Positions 7,282 through 16,347 of a stretch of 64,000 bases of DNA are shown one piece after another (within the stretch, counting starts at the first letter, position 1; every line of letters starts with the position of its first letter). Below the pieces are notes generated by a model that saw only the letters and a program-made list of their open reading frames with translations, made no database searches and had not been told where the DNA came from. The DNA comes from Thiothrix sp. (GTDB taxonomy: Bacteria; Pseudomonadota; Gammaproteobacteria; Thiotrichales; Thiotrichaceae), in the NCBI RefSeq assembly GCF_028714775.1, contig NZ_JAQTLS010000008.1:124001-188000 (forward strand), in the 5' to 3' direction. The position numbers were made by a program, and so were the translations under genes.

Positions 7282-7560
7282 TTAGCAGCACTTGCCGCCG
7301 CTGCAACAATTACCCACGCTGATTTTTGATCCCAGCAACCAGCCTTCCACACTGGCTTTGGATGGAATCCCACCCGCGTGAACCACCTTGCCATCCACCA
7401 CGACACCGGGCGTCGACATCACGCCGTAACCCATGATGGTGGGTAGGTCTTCGACCTTTTCCAATTCCAGCGTCACGCCTTTGGCTTTGGCAGTGTCTTC
7501 GATCAGCTTGTAAGTGGTGTTGCAGCTAGCACAACCCGTGCCGAGTACTTTGATTTCCAT
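7282..7560 (-). CDS. Small thioredoxin-fold protein (redox-active disulfide protein family)
   Basis: 92 residues, cytoplasmic. CASC at residues 10-13 is the redox pair. 'MSTPGVVVDGKVVHAGG' carries the cis-proline loop of the mini-thioredoxin family (MTH895-like). The C-terminus ends in paired cysteines, 'CCSGGKCC', which is unusual and suggests metal(loid) or thiol binding. It follows the permease gene by 20 bp. This permease/mini-thioredoxin pairing is frequent in ars-type operons, where the thioredoxin may supply reducing power; that role is inferred from context. Confidence 0.9.
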   Translation of the reverse strand: MEIKVLGTGCASCNTTYKLIEDTAKAKGVTLELEKVEDLPTIMGYGVMSTPGVVVDGKVVHAGGIPSKASVEGWLLGSKISVGNCCSGGKCC

Positions 7561-7580: not shown

Positions 7581-8600
7581 TTATAAAACCAGATTAAATA
7601 CATAACCGACCAGCAAGATGCCGAGTGCCACAATGCCCACGAATGTAGCAATCAGTCGCGGTTTCAGCACCTTGCGCAGGATGATCATTTCGGGCGCTGA
7701 CAGGGCAATCACGCTCATCATGAATGCCAGTACCGTGCCCAGTGCTGCGCCTTTCGCCAACAATGCCTGCACGACGGGTATCACACCAGCGGCGTTGCTG
7801 TACATCGGCACACCCAGCAATACTGCTGCGGGAACTGCCCACCATACATCTTTGCCCATGAAAGACGCCATGAAATCTTGCGGCACGTAACCGTGGATCA
7901 ACGCGCCCAGTGCGACCCCCGCGATGATATAAGGCCAGACTTTGCCGACGATTTCACGCACATGTTGGAAACCGTGGTTGATGCGTTCCGCCCACGCCAT
8001 GCGACCACCCGGCACATCAGCGGAGCGCGTGTTTTGCATGGCACGTACCCAGTCTTCGAGGTATTGCTCCATCCCCAGCTTGCCGATCAGCATTCCGGCA
8101 ACGATGGCAATCAGCAAGCCCATCGCCAGATACAGCGCTGCCACCTGCCAGCCAAACAGCCCGAACAGCAATACCAACGCCACTTCATTTACCATCGGCG
8201 CAGCAATCAGGAACGAGAACGTCACTCCCAACGGTACGCCCGCTTGCAGAAAGCCAATGAACAGCGGCACGGCGGAACAGGAGCAAAACGGTGTAACAAT
8301 GCCCAGCGTTGCCGCCATCACATTACCCACACCGAGGCGCTTGCCGGAGAGCATCGCACGGGTACGTTCCGGCGACACGAAGGTGTGGATGATGCCCATC
8401 ACGAACACGATGCCAGTGAGTAACAGCAACACTTTGGGGGTGTCGTACAAAAAGAACTGCAACGCACTACCCAGATGGCTGTCACGGTTGAGGGGCAGGG
8501 CGGCAACCAGCGCTTCCGAAACGGGGATCAGCGATTGGTAGAGTAAAAACCAGACCACCGCCGCTAACGGTAAAAACCAGCGTTTTTCTGAAATGACCAT
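7581..8600 (-). CDS. ArsP-like permease (UPF0718/DUF318 family)
   Basis: 339 residues from the ATG at 8600, which overlaps the upstream stop as TGATG; the longer ORF start at 8639 is unlikely. About eight to ten membrane segments are visible. The family motif with clustered cysteines is present ('TPFCSCSAVPLFIGFLQAG', near residues 105-125), followed by 'FLIAAPMVNEVALVL'. Related ArsP proteins export trivalent organoarsenicals; other UPF0718 members are uncharacterised. The ars operon context supports metalloid or thiol-linked efflux, but the substrate is not proven by sequence. Confidence 0.87.
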   Translation of the reverse strand: MVISEKRWFLPLAAVVWFLLYQSLIPVSEALVAALPLNRDSHLGSALQFFLYDTPKVLLLLTGIVFVMGIIHTFVSPERTRAMLSGKRLGVGNVMAATLGIVTPFCSCSAVPLFIGFLQAGVPLGVTFSFLIAAPMVNEVALVLLFGLFGWQVAALYLAMGLLIAIVAGMLIGKLGMEQYLEDWVRAMQNTRSADVPGGRMAWAERINHGFQHVREIVGKVWPYIIAGVALGALIHGYVPQDFMASFMGKDVWWAVPAAVLLGVPMYSNAAGVIPVVQALLAKGAALGTVLAFMMSVIALSAPEMIILRKVLKPRLIATFVGIVALGILLVGYVFNLVL

Positions 8601-8887
8601 CAGCAGCACGCCTGCCCGGAAGCGGTTGGGGTGCAGCAAGCGCCACCCACAGTGACCACAGGTGCGGCAACGGACTGTTCATCGAATGCAACATCCAGCT
8701 TTTGCGCCGCTTCATCGCGGATGTGGCGGGCGATTTCCACCGCTGTGTTGATATGGTCTTCCGACACACCTAAGGAGCGCAGCCGCTGGACTTGGCATAA
8801 GCCCATGCTGGGGTGTTTGGCGGCAATCCCCGCTGCTAGCGAAATCAGCGCGACAATGGAAGAATGTAAAGGGGGTTGATCATTCAT
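8600..8887 (-). CDS. Small AhpD/carboxymuconolactone-decarboxylase-like protein with Cys-rich tail
   Basis: 95 residues. The helical core ('LISLAAGIAAKHPSMGLC', 'LGVSEDHINTAVEIARHIRD') resembles AhpD-like proteins, but the usual CxxC is not intact: only one Cys is seen, in 'SMGLCQVQRL'. The tail 'GGACCTPTASGQACC' has two vicinal cysteine pairs. Its stop overlaps the permease start (TGATG), showing translational coupling. The function is unknown; a thiol-based carrier or metalloid-binding accessory is possible. Confidence in its being a gene is high, and in the AhpD relationship moderate. Confidence 0.75.
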   Translation of the reverse strand: MNDQPPLHSSIVALISLAAGIAAKHPSMGLCQVQRLRSLGVSEDHINTAVEIARHIRDEAAQKLDVAFDEQSVAAPVVTVGGACCTPTASGQACC

Positions 8888-8902: not shown

Positions 8903-9814
8903 TTAAGGGGTGTGAGATACAGGAAAATGTTGATGACAACCACACTCCGCCGCGACCGTTTCAATCTGCACGGTCGGGTGGTGGATGCCAAACTGTTCTC
9001 GCAGCGCAGCCGCCAAGTCGGTCAGGAATTGATCCCCCGGACTGTCGGCGGGCATCAGCAAATGCGCCGTCAACGCCACTTCTGACGTTCCCAGCGCCCA
9101 GATGTGCAGGTCATGCACCTGTTCCACACCGGGCAAGGCTTCCAGATGGGCTTTCACCGCTGGCAAGCTGATATGGTGTGGCACGCCATCAAACAGTAAG
9201 TGCAACGATTGGTGGAACAAACCCCATGTTCCCAGCACGATGATGATGGCAATCGCCAGACTCACCAAAGGATCAAGCCAGCCCCAGCCAAACCACAACG
9301 CCAATGCCCCGGAAATGACCACGCCGATCGACACCAGCGCATCCGCCGCCATGTGCAGGAACGCACCCCGGATGTTCAAATCCTCTGAACCACGCATAAA
9401 CAGCAACGCCGTCAAAGTATTGATCACCACCCCCACACTTGCCACCCACATGATGGTGTAGCCATCGGGCGGAATACTTGACCCAACGCGCCCGACCGAT
9501 TCCCACATCAACGAACCCATTACTACCAGCAATAACAGCGCGTTAGTGAATGCCGCTAAAATCGAGGCACGCTTCCAGCCGTAGGTATGGCGCACATCGG
9601 CGGCTAACCCACCTGCCAGCATCCCGCCCCATGCTACCACCAGCCCCGCCACATCACTCAGGTTGTGGCCTGCATCCGCCAGTAATGCCAGTGAATTGAT
9701 TTTCCAGCCGAAAAAAGCCTCAATGCCGACGAAACCAAGATTCAGGGCAATACCCAAGCCGAATGCTAGATTGAAAGAAGAAGGGGCATGATGGTGGTCA
9801 TGAGAGTGTTCCAT
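8903..9814 (-). CDS. Cation diffusion facilitator (CzcD/ZitB-type metal efflux)
   Basis: 303 residues. It starts with a His-rich 'MEHSHDHHHA' metal-binding stretch and has six membrane segments. The two CDF metal-site motifs are visible as 'LLADAGHNLSDVAG' (TM2, ~residues 45-58) and 'HMAADALVSIGVV' (TM5). A cytoplasmic ferredoxin-like C-terminal domain follows. CDF proteins export Zn, Co, Cd or similar cations in exchange for protons. It lies 15 bp after the CcdA-like gene and 15 bp before the AhpD-like gene, inside the leftward ars operon. Including a divalent-cation pump suggests broader metal stress than arsenic alone. Confidence 0.93.
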   Translation of the reverse strand: MEHSHDHHHAPSSFNLAFGLGIALNLGFVGIEAFFGWKINSLALLADAGHNLSDVAGLVVAWGGMLAGGLAADVRHTYGWKRASILAAFTNALLLLVVMGSLMWESVGRVGSSIPPDGYTIMWVASVGVVINTLTALLFMRGSEDLNIRGAFLHMAADALVSIGVVISGALALWFGWGWLDPLVSLAIAIIIVLGTWGLFHQSLHLLFDGVPHHISLPAVKAHLEALPGVEQVHDLHIWALGTSEVALTAHLLMPADSPGDQFLTDLAAALREQFGIHHPTVQIETVAAECGCHQHFPVSHTP

Positions 9815-9829: not shown

Positions 9830-10510
9830 TTAACGTTGGACAATGCCCTGCCAAACCCACCACGAACCCGCCAGCAACAGGATCATGGCGAAAGTGCGCC
9901 GCCCCGGTAGCCAGTGGTCGTACTGGGCAATCTGGCGGATCAGGGTATTTGCCGTCGCAGGCATTGCCCCTGCGACAAACAGCAAGATACTGTGACCGAT
10001 GCCGTAAACCAGCAGCAGTAACATACCCCACCACAAAGACGCGCCCAGCCATGAGCCAGTGCTAACCAGCGTCAACACCGCCGCCAACGCGGGCGTGGCA
10101 CACGGGCTAAGTACCGTACCGATCAGCCCACCCAACACAATTGCCCCCCATGTCCCTGAATGGGCGAACTTTTGCTGGATACCGACGGGGAGGCTTAAAC
10201 CACAGGATTGGGCAGGGCGCAAGCCCAACCACAATGCTGCTGCTACCAGCAATGCCCCGACTAAGATTGACCAAGTGCCGGAGACATTACCGAACAGCAG
10301 CCCCATCCGCGCCGCCAGCAAACCAAAGCCCAACAACGTCAAGTTCATCCCCAGCACAAAGGCAAACGACAACCACCAAGCACGGCGCGGGGTGTCGGCA
10401 CGACTACCGACATAACCGACCGTTACGGGAATGGCTGCCAACGCGCACGGTGAGGTCGAAGTCAGGATACCGCCCAGCAATGCAACGAGCAGCCCTTCCC
10501 ACCCCGACAT
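9830..10510 (-). CDS. CcdA/DsbD-type membrane thiol electron transporter
   Basis: 226 residues from the ATG at 10510, which overlaps the thioredoxin stop as TGATG; the longer ORF to 10753 is a different-frame extension across the thioredoxin gene. About six membrane helices are seen. Conserved cysteines occur in 'STSPCALAAIPV' and 'LSPCATPALAAV', the SPC motifs that carry electrons in CcdA/DsbD beta domains. It probably takes electrons from cytoplasmic thioredoxin and reduces the periplasmic thioredoxin-fold protein encoded just upstream. Finding it within an ars operon is uncommon. Confidence 0.88.
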   Translation of the reverse strand: MSGWEGLLVALLGGILTSTSPCALAAIPVTVGYVGSRADTPRRAWWLSFAFVLGMNLTLLGFGLLAARMGLLFGNVSGTWSILVGALLVAAALWLGLRPAQSCGLSLPVGIQQKFAHSGTWGAIVLGGLIGTVLSPCATPALAAVLTLVSTGSWLGASLWWGMLLLLVYGIGHSILLFVAGAMPATANTLIRQIAQYDHWLPGRRTFAMILLLAGSWWVWQGIVQR

Positions 10511-10938
10511 CAGGATTTGCCTGCCGGAATGCCTAAAGCATCCAGAATTTCCTGTTGGGTAAGTGGCCCCATGTGCCGCCAGGTTTCCTGCCCATTGGCA
10601 TCGAAGAACACTTGGGTAGGCATCAGCATGATGTGGTACTGCTTGGCATAATCCGGTTCTTTGACAATATTGACGTGCGCCACTGACAACTGCGTGGCGT
10701 AGTCTTGTTCTAACTGATTCAGCACTTTCGACATTTCTTGGCAGGTGCGGCAACTGTCAGAACCGAACTCTGCGATGGTAGGTTTACCCTGCTGCAAGGC
10801 TTGCGCAACCATGTCACCTTCGATTGCGTGTGCTTTGGTGGATAGTTGCACCGTGCTTAAGCCCAGTATCCCCACTAGCGCCAGCAGCATCAGCCACGTC
10901 ATGATGGGCAGTTGGAACTTGCCTGATTGCCATTTCAT
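10510..10938 (-). CDS. Membrane-anchored periplasmic thioredoxin-like protein
   Basis: 142 residues. An N-terminal hydrophobic anchor (residues ~12-32) is followed by a thioredoxin fold with CRTC near residue 63 in 'GSDSCRTCQEMSKVL' and the cis-Pro loop 'IMLMPTQVFFDANGQE'. Its start overlaps the rhodanese stop (ATGA) and its stop overlaps the CcdA-like start (TGATG), so the three are translationally coupled. It is likely the periplasmic partner of the CcdA-like protein, delivering reductant outside the membrane. The target could be the exported rhodanese; that is inference. Confidence 0.88.
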   Translation of the reverse strand: MKWQSGKFQLPIMTWLMLLALVGILGLSTVQLSTKAHAIEGDMVAQALQQGKPTIAEFGSDSCRTCQEMSKVLNQLEQDYATQLSVAHVNIVKEPDYAKQYHIMLMPTQVFFDANGQETWRHMGPLTQQEILDALGIPAGKS

Positions 10939-11876
10939 AATGCGTATTCTTCATCATAGGCGTTGTCGCCTTGTACCACTGGCAAGGTCATTGCCCTATC
11001 CCATACACCCCAGCCACCGTTGAGGAAGCGCACATCTTTGTAACCTAAATTCTTGAGTTGCAGCCAGCCTAAACTCATACGGAAACCGTCGTGGCAGTAG
11101 ATGTACACCGTTTTGTCGTTGGGGATGTCCTTGTACAAGGCAGCAATGTCTTCAGCCGATTTCCACAGTTGGGTTTGCCCATCCGTGCCGTCAATGCTGA
11201 CGATGTTGATCGCACCGGGAATATGCCCACCCTGCACGGCATGTTTGATGACTTTGCCTGTATACATATCAGCCGGACGGGCATCAACTAGCACCACGTT
11301 AGGGGCACGGCGGGAAACCACATCGTCGTACACAGCCATCCATTCCACCAGCATCTTGGGGTTGGCATCTTTTAGGGTGACGTTGCCTTCTTTTGGCGTG
11401 GGAGTGGATTCTTTGGTGAGTTCGTTGAAACCAGTCCAGCCAATCGTGCCACCATCAAGGATTTTCACCTTGCTCATGTCATAGCCAAACAATTCCAGCG
11501 TGCCATACAGCCTAGAAGCCAAAGCCGTACTGGAATCGTCATAAATCACCACTGTAGAGCTGTTGTTGATGCCCCATGAACGTAAGGTTTTCTCAAACAC
11601 ATTTTTTGCCGGGAAGCGCATGATTGGACTGCCCAGATTATCGCCCAAATCCTTGAAACGCTTTACCTGCACCGCACCTTCAATATGCCCGACAGTGTTA
11701 TAACGGTGCGGATGATAACGGACTTCAAGAATCACCAAATCTTTATTGCTTTGCTTTTCGGCTGCCAGCCAATCGGCATCAACCAAAAAGTCGCGGCCTT
11801 CTGCCCATGCAGGCGACAGCAAAAACATACTCAGCAGTAACAGGGCTGCACCCATGCGTTTTAACCGTAATGCCAT
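10935..11876 (-). CDS. Exported two-domain rhodanese (thiosulfate/3-mercaptopyruvate sulfurtransferase type)
   Basis: 313 residues with a clear signal peptide ('ALLLLSMFLLSPAWAEG', cleavage near residue 25). Two rhodanese domains follow. The C-terminal one keeps the catalytic cysteine loop 'YIYCHDGFRMSLG'; the N-terminal one lacks it, having 'VIYDDSSTALASRL' at the equivalent position. Such proteins move sulfane sulfur in the periplasm. It lies 23 bp after acr3 and overlaps the anchored thioredoxin gene, so it begins the rhodanese/thioredoxin/CcdA subset of the operon. A sulfur-oxidiser background would fit but is not proven here. Confidence 0.9.
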   Translation of the reverse strand: MALRLKRMGAALLLLSMFLLSPAWAEGRDFLVDADWLAAEKQSNKDLVILEVRYHPHRYNTVGHIEGAVQVKRFKDLGDNLGSPIMRFPAKNVFEKTLRSWGINNSSTVVIYDDSSTALASRLYGTLELFGYDMSKVKILDGGTIGWTGFNELTKESTPTPKEGNVTLKDANPKMLVEWMAVYDDVVSRRAPNVVLVDARPADMYTGKVIKHAVQGGHIPGAINIVSIDGTDGQTQLWKSAEDIAALYKDIPNDKTVYIYCHDGFRMSLGWLQLKNLGYKDVRFLNGGWGVWDRAMTLPVVQGDNAYDEEYAL

Positions 11877-11899: not shown

Positions 11900-12973
11900 T
11901 TAAGAACCTTCTGCCCCCGCTTCATACCAGCCGCGTGTACGATTGACGATAGCAACGACGGACAGCATTACCGGCACTTCCACCAATACCCCGACCACGG
12001 TAGCCAGCGCAGCACCCGAATTGAAGCCAAACAACACAATCGCCGTTGCTACCGCCAGTTCAAAGAAATTGCTTGCCCCAATCAGCGCGGAAGGGGCTGC
12101 CACACAATGCGCCACCCCAAACCGACGATTGAGCCAATACGCCAGCATCGAGTTGAAATACACCTGAATCAGAATCGGGATCGCCAGCAATAAAATGATC
12201 AGTGGCTGCGCCAACACCTGTTGCCCCTGAAAGCCAAACAGCAATGCCAGCGTTGCCAGCAATGCCCCCAACGACCACGGTTGCAGCGTTTTTAACGCAG
12301 CTTCCAGCTTGCCGGATGCGAGCAACCACTGCCGCAAACCTTGACTAATCAGCACTGGAATCACGATATAAATCACTACCGACAAAAACAGCGTCGCCCA
12401 CGGCACACTGATAGCCGACATTCCCAACAGCAAGCCCACCAACGGCGCAAACGCAAAAATCATAATGGCATCATTCAACGCCACTTGTGACAAGGTGAAA
12501 TGCGGTTCGCCATCCGTCAGATTGCTCCATACGAACACCATCGCGGTACACGGTGCAGCCGCCAACAAAATCAACCCAGCAATGTAACTATCGAGTTGTT
12601 CAGCAGGCAACCATTCCGCAAACAGCACGCGGATGAACAACCAGCCCAGCAACGCCATCGAAAACGGTTTCACCAGCCAGTTGATGAACAGCGTTACCCC
12701 AATGCCTTTCCAGTGCTGCCCGACCTCATGCAAGGCGCGGAAGTCGATTTTCAGCAACATTGGAATGACCATCAACCAGATCAGCACGGCTACGGGCAGG
12801 TTGACTTGCGCCACCTCCATTTGCCCGATGCCTTGGAATGCGCTGGGGAACACACTGCCCAAGCCGATCCCGGCGAAAATGCACAGCAACACCCACACGG
12901 TTAGGTAGCGTTCAAATACACCCATTGCCGCTTTGGTGGCACGTTTGGCAGTGACTTCACACTGGGCGCTCAT
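11900..12973 (-). CDS. acr3: Arsenite efflux transporter Acr3
   Basis: 357 residues from the ATG at 12973, preceded by AAGGA at 8-nt spacing; another in-frame ATG at 12982 overlaps arsC. About ten membrane helices are visible. The essential Acr3 cysteine is in 'LLAAAPCTAMVFVWSNL', and a conserved Glu-rich helix occurs late ('VVGVLVEVPVML'). It exports As(III) produced by ArsC using the proton gradient. It starts 2 bp after the arsC stop, which indicates coupled expression. The family assignment (BASS/Acr3 rather than ArsB) is clear from length and motif. Confidence 0.95.
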   Translation of the reverse strand: MSAQCEVTAKRATKAAMGVFERYLTVWVLLCIFAGIGLGSVFPSAFQGIGQMEVAQVNLPVAVLIWLMVIPMLLKIDFRALHEVGQHWKGIGVTLFINWLVKPFSMALLGWLFIRVLFAEWLPAEQLDSYIAGLILLAAAPCTAMVFVWSNLTDGEPHFTLSQVALNDAIMIFAFAPLVGLLLGMSAISVPWATLFLSVVIYIVIPVLISQGLRQWLLASGKLEAALKTLQPWSLGALLATLALLFGFQGQQVLAQPLIILLLAIPILIQVYFNSMLAYWLNRRFGVAHCVAAPSALIGASNFFELAVATAIVLFGFNSGAALATVVGVLVEVPVMLSVVAIVNRTRGWYEAGAEGS

Positions 12974-12974
12974 C

Positions 12975-13481
12975 TCACGCATCCTTGGTGGGTGGCAGGG
13001 TGGTTTGCCCGATGTCTTGCAACTGCTGTTGCAGGGAAAGTTCATCCAGCGAACCCATCGGCAGGTTGACGAAAATATCAATGCGGTTGTAAAGCTGGCG
13101 GTAGGCTTCGCGGAAAGCGGCTAAACGGGTGATTTCGTCACCTTCAACATCCGCCGGATCAGGCACACCCCAATGGGCGCTCATGGGTTGACCCGGCCAG
13201 ATGGGACACATTTCAGCCGCCGCTTTATCGCACACGGTAAAAACAAAATCCAACTTGGGCGCATCAGGTGCGGCAAATTCAGCCCAGTCCTTGCTACGCA
13301 AATCCGCCGTGACATAATTCAGGCGATCCAGCAAGCTGGTGGTCATGGGGTTGACTGCACCACGTGGATGGCTGCCTGCGCTATAAGCCTTGAATTTGCC
13401 CATGCCCAAACGGTTCAGGATGGCTTCTGCGATAATGCTGCGGGCAGAATTACCCGTGCAAAGAAACAGGACGTTGAACAT
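12975..13481 (-). CDS. arsC: Arsenate reductase, low-MW tyrosine-phosphatase type
   Basis: 168 residues from the ATG at 13481 (MFNVLFLC), preceded by AAGGA; the ORF track's TTG at 13499 lies upstream of that Shine-Dalgarno. The P-loop CX5R is 'FLCTGNSARSIIAEA' at residues ~6-20. Further on are 'DKAAAEMCPIWPG' and the acid loop 'WGVPDPADVEG'. It reduces As(V) to As(III), probably with thioredoxin or glutaredoxin as donor. A 76-bp gap separates it from arsJ and holds a second copy of the putative ArsR operator, so it may have an internal promoter. Confidence 0.93.
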   Translation of the reverse strand: MFNVLFLCTGNSARSIIAEAILNRLGMGKFKAYSAGSHPRGAVNPMTTSLLDRLNYVTADLRSKDWAEFAAPDAPKLDFVFTVCDKAAAEMCPIWPGQPMSAHWGVPDPADVEGDEITRLAAFREAYRQLYNRIDIFVNLPMGSLDELSLQQQLQDIGQTTLPPTKDA

Positions 13482-13519
13482 AAAATTATCCTTCTTCAAG
13501 CAGTTGTTAAAGAGGATAA

Positions 13520-13557: not shown

Positions 13558-14760
13558 TTATGTCACAAAAGATTCATGTTTTTCAGGCAAGCGTAACGAC
13601 AGCAACAACGCCGCCAACACAAATCCCGCCGACAGCCACAAACAACCTTCCAACCCGTATTGCTGGTATGACCAACCCGACAACACCGTACCCGCCAGCC
13701 GCCCACCTGCATTCGCCATGTAATAAAACCCGACCTTTAACGCCACCTTATCATGATCCGCGTAAGCCAGAATCAGGTAAGAATGCAGCGCGGAATTGAT
13801 GGCAAACACCACGCCGAAAATCAGCAAACCCGCGACCAACACAGACCCGGCATCCCAGCCCTGTCCTAATACCAGCGCAATACCTGCGGGAATCAACAAC
13901 AACACCAACGCCCAGAATTGGGCAGCGCCCGCCCCCGGCGCATGTTGTTTCAAGCCCAGCAATGCAGGCGCACTCGCTTGCACCACCCCGTAGCCGATTA
14001 CCCACACCGCCATGAAACCTCCGACCTGCATGAAGCTCCAGCCCAATACCGCGTGCATGAATACTGGCACTGCCACCACGAACCACACATCCCGCGCCCC
14101 AAACAGGAAAAACCGCGCTGCCGACAGCCAGTTAATCGCCGCATTATTGGAAAACACTTGGGTAAATTTCGGTTTGGATTTCGCTTTGCCAAGCTCATCC
14201 GGCAACAGCAGCAGGGTCAATAGTGTCACCACGAACAACCCACCCGCGAGGATCAGCAGTGCATTCTGGAAACCAGCGACTTGCAACAAAGCCGCACCGA
14301 GGAAAAAGCCCACGCCTTTCAGCGCATTTTTCGAGCCGGTGAGGATCGCCACCCACTTGAATAGCTTCGCATCCGCATCTTTCGGCACGAGGGTTTTGAC
14401 ACTCGCTTTCGCCGACATCTTGTTCAGGTCTTTGGCAATGCCGGACAGGGCTTGCGCCGCCATCACATAGGGCACAGACAGCCATGCGGTGGGTAGCAAC
14501 ATCCCCAACGCGGCAATTTGCAATACCATGCCGAGGTGCATCGTGACATTCAGCCCCAGCCGCGCTGCCAACCAGCCGCCGACCAGATTGGTGACAATGC
14601 CGAAAAATTCGTAGAACAAGAACAGCATCGCCACCTGAAACGGCGAATAGCCGAGCTGGTGAAAATACAGCACCACCAGCATCCGCAGTGCGCCATCAGT
14701 GAGGGTGAATGCCCAGTAGCCACCCGTGACAGTGAGGTAATTGCGCAGGTCAAGGGTCAT
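13558..14760 (-). CDS. arsJ: ArsJ, organoarsenical (1-arseno-3-phosphoglycerate) efflux MFS transporter
   Basis: 400 residues from the ATG at 14760 (MTLDLRNYL), 2 bp after the GAPDH stop. The longer ORF to 14820 reads into GAPDH and is rejected. About twelve membrane helices are present. The opening 'GGYWAFTLTDGALRMLVVLY' and 'FHQLGYSPFQVAMLFLFYE' is typical of ArsJ. ArsJ works with an adjacent GAPDH: the enzyme makes unstable 1-arseno-3-phosphoglycerate from arsenate, and ArsJ exports it. The immediate GAPDH-ArsJ coupling seen here supports that function strongly. Confidence 0.93.
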   Translation of the reverse strand: MTLDLRNYLTVTGGYWAFTLTDGALRMLVVLYFHQLGYSPFQVAMLFLFYEFFGIVTNLVGGWLAARLGLNVTMHLGMVLQIAALGMLLPTAWLSVPYVMAAQALSGIAKDLNKMSAKASVKTLVPKDADAKLFKWVAILTGSKNALKGVGFFLGAALLQVAGFQNALLILAGGLFVVTLLTLLLLPDELGKAKSKPKFTQVFSNNAAINWLSAARFFLFGARDVWFVVAVPVFMHAVLGWSFMQVGGFMAVWVIGYGVVQASAPALLGLKQHAPGAGAAQFWALVLLLIPAGIALVLGQGWDAGSVLVAGLLIFGVVFAINSALHSYLILAYADHDKVALKVGFYYMANAGGRLAGTVLSGWSYQQYGLEGCLWLSAGFVLAALLLSLRLPEKHESFVT

Positions 14761-14762
14761 GC

Positions 14763-15758
14763 TTACAAACTCGCCACAACTTTCGCCGTCAACTCCATCA
14801 TGCGGTTCATATAGCCCCACTCGTTGTCATACCACGCATAGATTTTCACCTGCGTACCGTCGATGACCATTGTGGAAGGCGCGTCGATGATGGACGAACG
14901 CGGGTCATGCTTGTAATCCACCGATACCAGCGGGCGTTCTTCGTAACCCAAAATGCCTTTGAGGTAGGTGTCCGCCGCTTCCTTGAAATAGCCATTCAGC
15001 TCTTCCGCCGTCACCTCACGCGCTGCTTCAAACACAAAGTCGGTGAGGGAGGCATTCAACAAGGGGATGCGCACCGCATGACCGTTCAATTTTCCCGCGA
15101 GTTCGGGGAAGATTTTGGTGATGGCTTTGGCAGAACCCGTGGTGGTGGGGATCATGGATTCGCCACACGCCCGTGCCCGGCGCAAGTCCTTATGCCCCTT
15201 GTCGATGATAGTTTGGGTGTTGGTGATATTGTGCAAGGTGGTCATGCAGCCGTGTTTGATGCCGACCTTTTCGTGCATGACTTTGACCACGGGTGCGAGG
15301 CAGTTGGTGGTGCAAGAAGCGGCAGTGATTAAATGATGCTCATCCGGCTTGTACCAATCGTCATTCACGCCATACACGATATTCAACGCGCCTTCCACAG
15401 GAGCGGCAACGATCACTTTTTTCACGCCTTGGTCGAAATACGCCTGTAACTGCTCAATTTTGCGGAACTTGCCGCTGCATTCCAGCACGATGTCGCAGCC
15501 AGACCAATCCGTGTCTTCGATAGCTTTATTGGAGGTGTAGGAAATGGTTTGACCATCAACGGTCATAGTGCGGTCATCGGCACTGCATTCCGGCGACCAG
15601 ATGCCGTGGATGGAATCGAACTTCAGCAAATGCGCGGATGTAACCGCATTGCCCGCGATTTCATTGACTTGCGTGAAGGTGAACGCCGGGTTGCCCCATG
15701 CTGCGCGGATGCCCAAGCGCCCCATGCGCCCGAAGCCGTTGATGCCGATGATTGCCAT
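14763..15758 (-). CDS. Glyceraldehyde-3-phosphate dehydrogenase of the ArsJ pathway
   Basis: 331 residues, a full-length GAPDH. '[18 protein letters not shown]' is the NAD-binding opening, '[17 protein letters not shown]' carries the catalytic Cys near residue 150, and '[15 protein letters not shown]' and '[16 protein letters not shown]' follow. Its position between arsR and arsJ indicates the dedicated arsenic isozyme, which uses arsenate in place of phosphate, rather than the glycolytic one. Transcription probably starts in the 89-bp gap after arsR, which holds a putative ArsR operator. A housekeeping role in addition cannot be excluded. Confidence 0.93.
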
Positions 15759-15847: not shown

Positions 15848-16198
15848 TCATGCGCAGGGTAAGCATACCTCACTTTGCCGTTCCGCTCCTGTCAGGCGTT
15901 GGCGGTCAGTGTGGAAAGGCTCCTCACCTTCGCTGCCCAGTCGCAAACTTTCCAGCGTATCCAGCAACCAGCACGGCAGGTCGGGATGCAGGCGGTAATA
16001 CACCCACAACCCGGCCTTACGGTCTAGCAACAAACCGCCTTCGCGCAACACGGCAAGGTGGCGGGAAATCTTCGGTTGCGCCAGTTCCAGTGCTTGCGTG
16101 AGTTCGCACACGCACAGTTCCGCCTTGCCCACCAACAGCAGCAGGATGCGCAGGCGGGTCTGGTCGGCAAGGGCTTTGGTGAAAGTTTCCAGTTGCAT
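15848..16198 (-). CDS. arsR: ArsR-family arsenic-responsive repressor
   Basis: 116 residues from the ATG at 16198 (MQLETFTKALADQTRLRIL); the ORF's upstream extension to 16273 runs into the duplicated trxC end. It is a winged-helix ArsR/SmtB protein. The recognition region 'QPKISRHLAVLREGGLLLDR' is canonical, and the 'ELCVCEL' CxC in helix alpha-3 is the classical As(III) sensor. The C-terminus 'EVCLPCA' adds a further Cys pair. A TATACT -10-like box lies at 16235-16230, about 35 bp upstream of the ATG. It is first in the operon and presumably autoregulates it. Confidence 0.94.
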   Translation of the reverse strand: MQLETFTKALADQTRLRILLLLVGKAELCVCELTQALELAQPKISRHLAVLREGGLLLDRKAGLWVYYRLHPDLPCWLLDTLESLRLGSEGEEPFHTDRQRLTGAERQSEVCLPCA

Positions 16199-16241
16199 TG
16201 TCGTTTGGTCAGTTAACAGGGTACTGCCGAGTATAGCGCGG

Positions 16242-16262
16242 TTAAAGCTGGCTGCGCACCCA
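16242..16262 (-). repeat. Second copy of the trxC 3' end (21-bp direct repeat, left copy)
   Basis: These 21 bases are identical to 17158-17178, the last seven codons of trxC including its stop. In the trxC frame they still read 'WVRSQL' then TAA. Upstream of this the two copies diverge at once. The repeat lies 44 bp before the arsR start and flanks the 0.9-kb block up to trxC. Confidence 0.8.
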
Positions 16263-16347
16263 GTGGTTGCCATTTTGTACCGATTGTCAGTAAATGCTTT
16301 TATTTATTCTGAGTATTGTGTTTGTTGGCTTTTAGCATTAATTGATA

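Follow-up and report, generated by a model that had tools for sequence, protein, structure and literature searches.

A secreted rhodanese linked with arsenic genes in SoxB-bearing bacteria and a separate thioredoxin-CcdA cassette meet in an ars operon of Thiothrix sp.

If a secreted rhodanese, a periplasmic thioredoxin and a membrane electron carrier are encoded by overlapping genes within an ars operon, do they form one functional module, and does their presence indicate that sulfur transfer and arsenic are linked? This question is raised by three minus-strand genes in the window (viz. the whole stretch of 64,000 nucleotides from Thiothrix sp. that was analysed), which the earlier note had read as a single coupled module in a sulfur-metabolising host. 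The genes encode RHOD, a secreted two-domain rhodanese of 313 aa (10935..11876; a Sec-like signal and two PF00581 stretches, 1e-33), TRX, an N-terminally anchored periplasmic thioredoxin of 142 aa (10510..10938; PF00085, 4.7e-12), and CCDA, a CcdA/DsbD_TM thiol electron carrier of 226 aa (9830..10510; PF02683 DsbD_TM, 5e-16). The first two overlap by ATGA and the last two by TGATG, and these overlaps, together with the Pfam matches and the signal and transmembrane segments, confirm the description of the three genes given in the earlier note. The mechanical ORF list gives CCDA as a 307-aa ORF, which begins too early, 10510 being its likely start. As orthologues of each of the three proteins keep the catalytic residues, they are not chance ORFs.

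The three genes belong to a series of 12 on the minus strand, separated by short gaps, in the order arsR-gapdh-arsJ-arsC-acr3-RHOD-TRX-CCDA-CDF-95aa-arsP-arsE, which from its sequence is probably a single transcription unit; promoter-like sites were about as frequent as expected from shuffled sequence, and the terminator-like ones fell inside genes. At its head is an ArsR-like repressor (15848..16273), recognised from its ORF and from orthologues at the head of the ars clusters in L019, L027, L029 and L050. It is followed by a GAPDH (14763..15758; assigned from ORF and sequence, with orthologues adjoining ArsJ in L019, L030, L035 and L050), which is the usual partner of ArsJ, and by the ArsJ organoarsenical efflux MFS transporter itself (13558..14820; NF033734, 605.9 bits, cut-off 400). 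Next are an ArsC-like low-molecular-weight phosphatase-type arsenate reductase (12975..13499; PF01451, with TIGR02691 at 65 bits being below cut-off) and the ACR3 arsenite efflux transporter (11900..13081; TIGR00832, 377 bits, cut-off 282.8), which lies directly upstream of RHOD and ends 23 nt from it. On the other side, 15 nt separate CCDA from the start of a CDF cation efflux transporter (8903..9814; TIGR01297, 247.9 bits), after which come a 95-aa protein with a C-terminal CC...CC (8600..8887; no Pfam or NCBIfam match), an ArsP-type permease (7581..8639; PF03773, 261.9 bits, the gene start being unsure between 8606 and 8639) and an ArsE/MTH895-type small thioredoxin-like protein (7282..7560; TIGR00412, 93.4 bits, cut-off 62). 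The 95-aa protein recurs in ars operons (L014, L027, L029, L115, L118, L125 and L127). Between its gene and that for ArsP, two genomes congeneric with that of the window encode a 141-aa protein which matches nothing in NCBIfam (L014:8891-9313).

RHOD has two PF00581 stretches, a catalytic Cys in the second domain alone and a six-residue active-site loop, as found in two-domain rhodaneses of the TST/MST superfamily, and it is thus predicted to be a member of this group and a putative sulfurtransferase. Its sole Cys, C261, is in the loop CHDGFR of the C-terminal domain, whereas the N-terminal domain (DDSST) has no Cys. In alignment A6 of the RHOD sequences, from which the Cys-less L047 paralogue and one plasmid row were left out, the loop is CHDGFR in 38 of 40 rows, CDDGFR and CHDGYR occur once each, and C261 is invariant; every member that keeps the Cys has a CX4R loop. 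A signal-like N-terminus is seen in all 42 members with a readable start, and the N-terminal motif RYHPHRY..GHI.GA.QVQRF.DLGDN is strongly conserved. The AlphaFold model (pLDDT 85.5, pTM 0.84, with low values for residues 293-302) resembles thiosulfate sulfurtransferases in the PDB, the best being 1UAR (TM 0.78/0.87). Assignment to 3-mercaptopyruvate sulfurtransferase (PRK11493, 84.2 bits against an NCBIfam cut-off of 250) or to the ExtH rhodanese of selenite/tellurite operons (NF040901, 62.4 bits, cut-off 200) was rejected. The divergent paralogue noted above (L047:2545-3453; 44%), whose catalytic loop lacks Cys, is located behind a response-regulator-like gene.

Among the best 80 of 333 relatives in a scan of genome contigs, the members of the RHOD family (L021-L050) show 44-74% identity, after which generic rhodaneses follow at 33% or less. 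In the phylogenetic tree the members form one clade with a long stem (100/99, length 2.63), the root being unsure as several outgroup branches are very long. Judged by this stem, the near-invariant CHDGFR and the signal peptide, RHOD is a distinct clade of rhodaneses, no description of which was found in the literature searched, which covers few subscription journals. The named hosts are mostly sulfur oxidisers, viz. Thiobacillus, Thiocapsa, Allochromatium, Thiohalocapsa, Sulfuricella and Sulfuritalea. Of 47 RHOD loci, 30 have hallmark arsenic genes within 10 kb, in comparison with 0 of 50 loci of generic rhodaneses from the same scan (Fisher 3e-13), where the RHOD loci include related genomes and are only partly independent of one another, the controls are drawn from many phyla, ORFs were chosen by composition score, and the hallmark panel was made from the islands of the window and its relatives, so that distant arsenic genes near the controls could escape it. 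In the subset with at least 3 kb of flank on both sides the count is 19 of 25, and several loci (L023, L028, L034) have no arsenic gene within 10 kb. The genes near RHOD include those for ACR3 (its commonest identified upstream neighbour), ArsC, ArsP, ArsE, ArsJ and ArsM, as well as AioAB (L025, L046) and ArxA (L123, L127).

Genes for OsmC, TauE and metallohydrolases also recur in these islands. The metallohydrolases include a SoxH-like protein of metallo-beta-lactamase fold (L050:8171-9091; TIGR04558, 151 bits, below the cut-off of 300), which often adjoins or is near RHOD and has homologues in L021, L026, L031, L042, L043, L116, L118 and L125. A porin gene is found just upstream of RHOD in L017, L021, L023, L028, L032 and L116 (PF13609 Porin_4 in L021, homologues elsewhere), and in L021 the SoxH-like gene lies between the porin and RHOD. 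Some islands (L033:18266-20914, also L029, L031 and L048) encode a clade of TAT-type molybdoenzymes, whose best PDB match is 2VPW (labelled thiosulfate reductase), followed by ArrA, and which show 26-33% identity to ArxA; in L033 and L048 they are accompanied by AioXSR-like regulators.

RHOD is linked with sulfur as well. SoxB scores over its cut-off in all 34 RHOD genomes, as against 135 of 340 sampled genomes of the class, and within the class sample 13 of 13 RHOD genomes are positive (Fisher 4e-6, with kinship ignored); in the window's genome, SoxB is on a contig other than that of the ars operon. The association of RHOD with both arsenic and sulfur, which the earlier note had put forward as an idea to test, is thus well supported. 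The contrary pattern named there, i.e. occurrence mainly outside metalloid contexts or beside cytochrome c maturation genes, was looked for and was not found, since most RHOD loci have ars, aio or arx genes and TRX-CCDA also occurs in arsenic operons. A clear arsenite oxidase is present in only about 10 of the 34 genomes (AioA-type in 7, at above 1000 bits; ArxA-type in 3, at 60% or greater identity over long stretches; TIGR02693 matches of 340-456 bits and ArxA matches of 31-40% were not counted), and at these thresholds the window's genome has neither type. Due to this, a role for RHOD that depends upon arsenite oxidase was rejected in favour of one independent of it.

The claim of a single coupled module did not hold. 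TRX-CCDA is usually missing where RHOD occurs, and RHOD is often missing where TRX-CCDA occurs; all three genes were seen side by side only in the window. A conserved three-gene module was not found beyond it, except for an analogue on plasmid pORIO3 of Cereibacter azotoformans ORIO, where an arx island has the analogous order arsP-arsE-rhodanese-TRX-CCDA-CDF, but this rhodanese is single-domain, lacks a signal peptide (cytosolic) and is unrelated to RHOD. Two separately arsenic-linked units meet in the window. The second of these, TRX-CCDA, is a recurrent cassette of arsenic operons separate from RHOD. TRX has a transmembrane segment at residues 12-30, the active site CRTC and a cis-Pro at P107, while CCDA belongs to the CcdA/DsbD transmembrane family (PF02683, 59.1 bits, cut-off 27.1; 5VKV CcdA) and has two S-P-C motifs with C22 and C137, both invariant in six homologues. 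In an unselected sample of 389 genomes drawn evenly from the phylum, a strong CCDA relative occurs in five genomes, one of which is the window's; the four new matches, three of them from one family, all adjoin ArsP/ArsE in arsenic operons. Two genomes of this sample, the window's and G692, have RHOD, and each of them has TRX-CCDA as well. Some association of the two units is nevertheless suggested by the overlapping genes of the window and by the occurrence of a strong CCDA relative in 3 of 27 RHOD genomes compared with 4 of 388 sampled genomes. In one of these three (G183) the relative shares the operon of RHOD a few genes apart, in Allochromatium (G431) it belongs to an ars operon some 14 kb away from RHOD, and in G426 it is beside MoaA, AioA and AioB on a contig other than that of RHOD. 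On plasmid pSCD of Sulfuricella denitrificans, an arx/ars island carries such a relative and RHOD some 11.5 kb apart.

Rhodaneses form a persulfide on a Cys and from it transfer sulfane sulfur to a nucleophile, the classical enzyme converting cyanide into thiocyanate, and monothioarsenate, one of the thioarsenates which form in sulfidic waters, is the arsenic analogue of thiosulfate. This family chemistry and the likeness of the two compounds suggest that RHOD may transfer sulfur to or from arsenic. As regards its arsenic substrate (thioarsenate included), the direction of transfer and the flow of electrons between RHOD and TRX, we infer the following. In Sox-type sulfur oxidisers, RHOD would act in the periplasm as a dedicated sulfurtransferase linked with arsenic. 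Its C261 would accept sulfane sulfur, with thiosulfate, polysulfide or a persulfide as donor, and hand it on to arsenite exported to the periplasm by ACR3, yielding monothioarsenate. TRX-CCDA would carry electrons across the membrane and reduce periplasmic thiols, which may include a stalled persulfide or oxidised C261 of RHOD; however, as RHOD mostly occurs without TRX-CCDA, it has no obligatory dedicated electron partner. That RHOD thiolates exported arsenite, with TRX-CCDA as a separate periplasmic thiol-reductant cassette, is the reading we tentatively prefer, at somewhat less than even chances. It is favoured by the adjacency of ACR3 and by the many RHOD genomes without a clear arsenite oxidase; however, genomic context alone sets neither the substrate nor the direction of transfer.

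The same enzyme working in reverse, by desulfurating monothioarsenate, is nearly as possible. In this case, C261 would free arsenite for ACR3, Aio or Arx, and the persulfide would pass to TRX-CCDA, the SoxH-like metallohydrolase or Sox, the sulfur serving as an energy source. The resemblance of monothioarsenate to thiosulfate, the presence of RHOD in the aio/arx islands of L025, L046, L123 and L127, the SoxH-like hydrolase adjoining it in several loci and the SoxB of all hosts tested agree with this, but a clear arsenite oxidase is missing from most RHOD genomes, the production of arsenite beside an arsenite pump would be poor detoxification, and published proposals assign thioarsenate oxidation to Sox itself (PMC6620896). 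We regard it as rather unlikely. Less probable again, though the OsmC, TauE and SoxH-like metallohydrolase neighbours also fit general persulfide handling and recur in the same islands, is that RHOD, TRX-CCDA, OsmC and TauE deal with the reactive sulfane sulfur that accumulates once thiol and sulfur metabolism is blocked by arsenite, arsenic being the inducer and not the substrate; the tightness of the clade-specific arsenic linkage, the ACR3 adjacency and the absence of such linkage from all 50 generic rhodanese loci speak against it. A periplasmic arsenate reductase of the Acr2/Cdc25 type, which the rhodanese fold and the arsenic context might bring to mind, is highly improbable and was rejected, as six-residue rhodanese loops go with sulfur substrates whereas the seven-residue HCX5R required here goes with phosphate or arsenate (PMC6272796), the loop of RHOD is CX4R, and the operon already has a separate ArsC.

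Compatible with any of these readings of RHOD, and itself on the doubtful side, is that TRX-CCDA works for the ArsP/ArsE branch (organoarsenicals) and that its position beside RHOD is incidental in this genome; CCDA might itself be an ArsG-like permease. TRX-CCDA adjoins ArsP and/or ArsE in seven loci (L118, L126, L158, L168, L169, L170, L171) whether RHOD is present or absent, and ArsG (NF040495) is the best NCBIfam match of the window's CCDA. However, CCDA was rejected as ArsG because its score of 48.5 bits, like the 26.8 bits of a homologue, is far under the cut-off of 200 and two further homologues gave no match, and the gene overlaps and genome counts given above suggest an association with RHOD.

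The enzyme pathway of thioarsenate oxidation is stated to be unknown (PMC6620896), and a rhodanese which is secreted, encoded in arsenic operons and, as far as tested, found only in SoxB-bearing bacteria provides a concrete gene for thioarsenate chemistry. The RHOD family is a candidate for the missing enzymes that convert arsenite into sulfur-bound arsenic or back, and RHOD could conceivably, though with the odds slightly against it, be the founding arsenite:sulfane sulfurtransferase (or thioarsenate desulfurase), i.e. the first dedicated enzyme for the biological formation or breakdown of inorganic thioarsenates. With TRX-CCDA, the repertoire of ars genes gains a periplasmic reductant pair that recurs and as yet has no name.

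In comparison with known systems, the nearest published case to RHOD, likened by description only, is in Thioalkalivibrio jannaschii, where 5 mM arsenite strongly induces an operon that has a rhodanese-related sulfurtransferase and lies beside arx and ars (PMC6620896); other papers on arx clusters (PMC6549141, PMC6683785, PMC6397845) make no mention of a rhodanese. TsoB (NF045694) combines the same three activities (rhodanese, DsbD and thioredoxin), but it is one fused selenoprotein with selenocysteine, whereas TRX and CCDA are separate genes that score 24-32 bits against its cut-off of 805 and were rejected as TsoB. ArsG and CCDA are both CcdA-superfamily membrane proteins of ars operons; CCDA is below the ArsG cut-off, and having TRX as a partner points to a role in carrying electrons. 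Judged by function, the nearest precedent for TRX-CCDA is SoxV-SoxW, a pair of sulfur oxidisers whose CcdA-type carrier reduces a periplasmic thioredoxin (Appia-Ayme and Berks 2002, as cited in PMC10451225), although TRX-CCDA is located in arsenic operons and not in sox clusters. With the arsenate reductases Acr2/LmACR2/Cdc25, RHOD shares the rhodanese fold and the relation to arsenic, but it differs in its CX4R loop, periplasmic site and two domains. With the two-domain TST/MST enzymes (bovine TST, SseA and T. thermophilus 1UAR) it has in common the fold, the inactive N-terminal domain, the C-terminal catalytic Cys and the six-residue loop, and it is distinguished from them by being secreted and arsenic-linked, by the near-invariant CHDGFR and its own N-terminal motif, and by an identity of only about 22-30% to the solved members.
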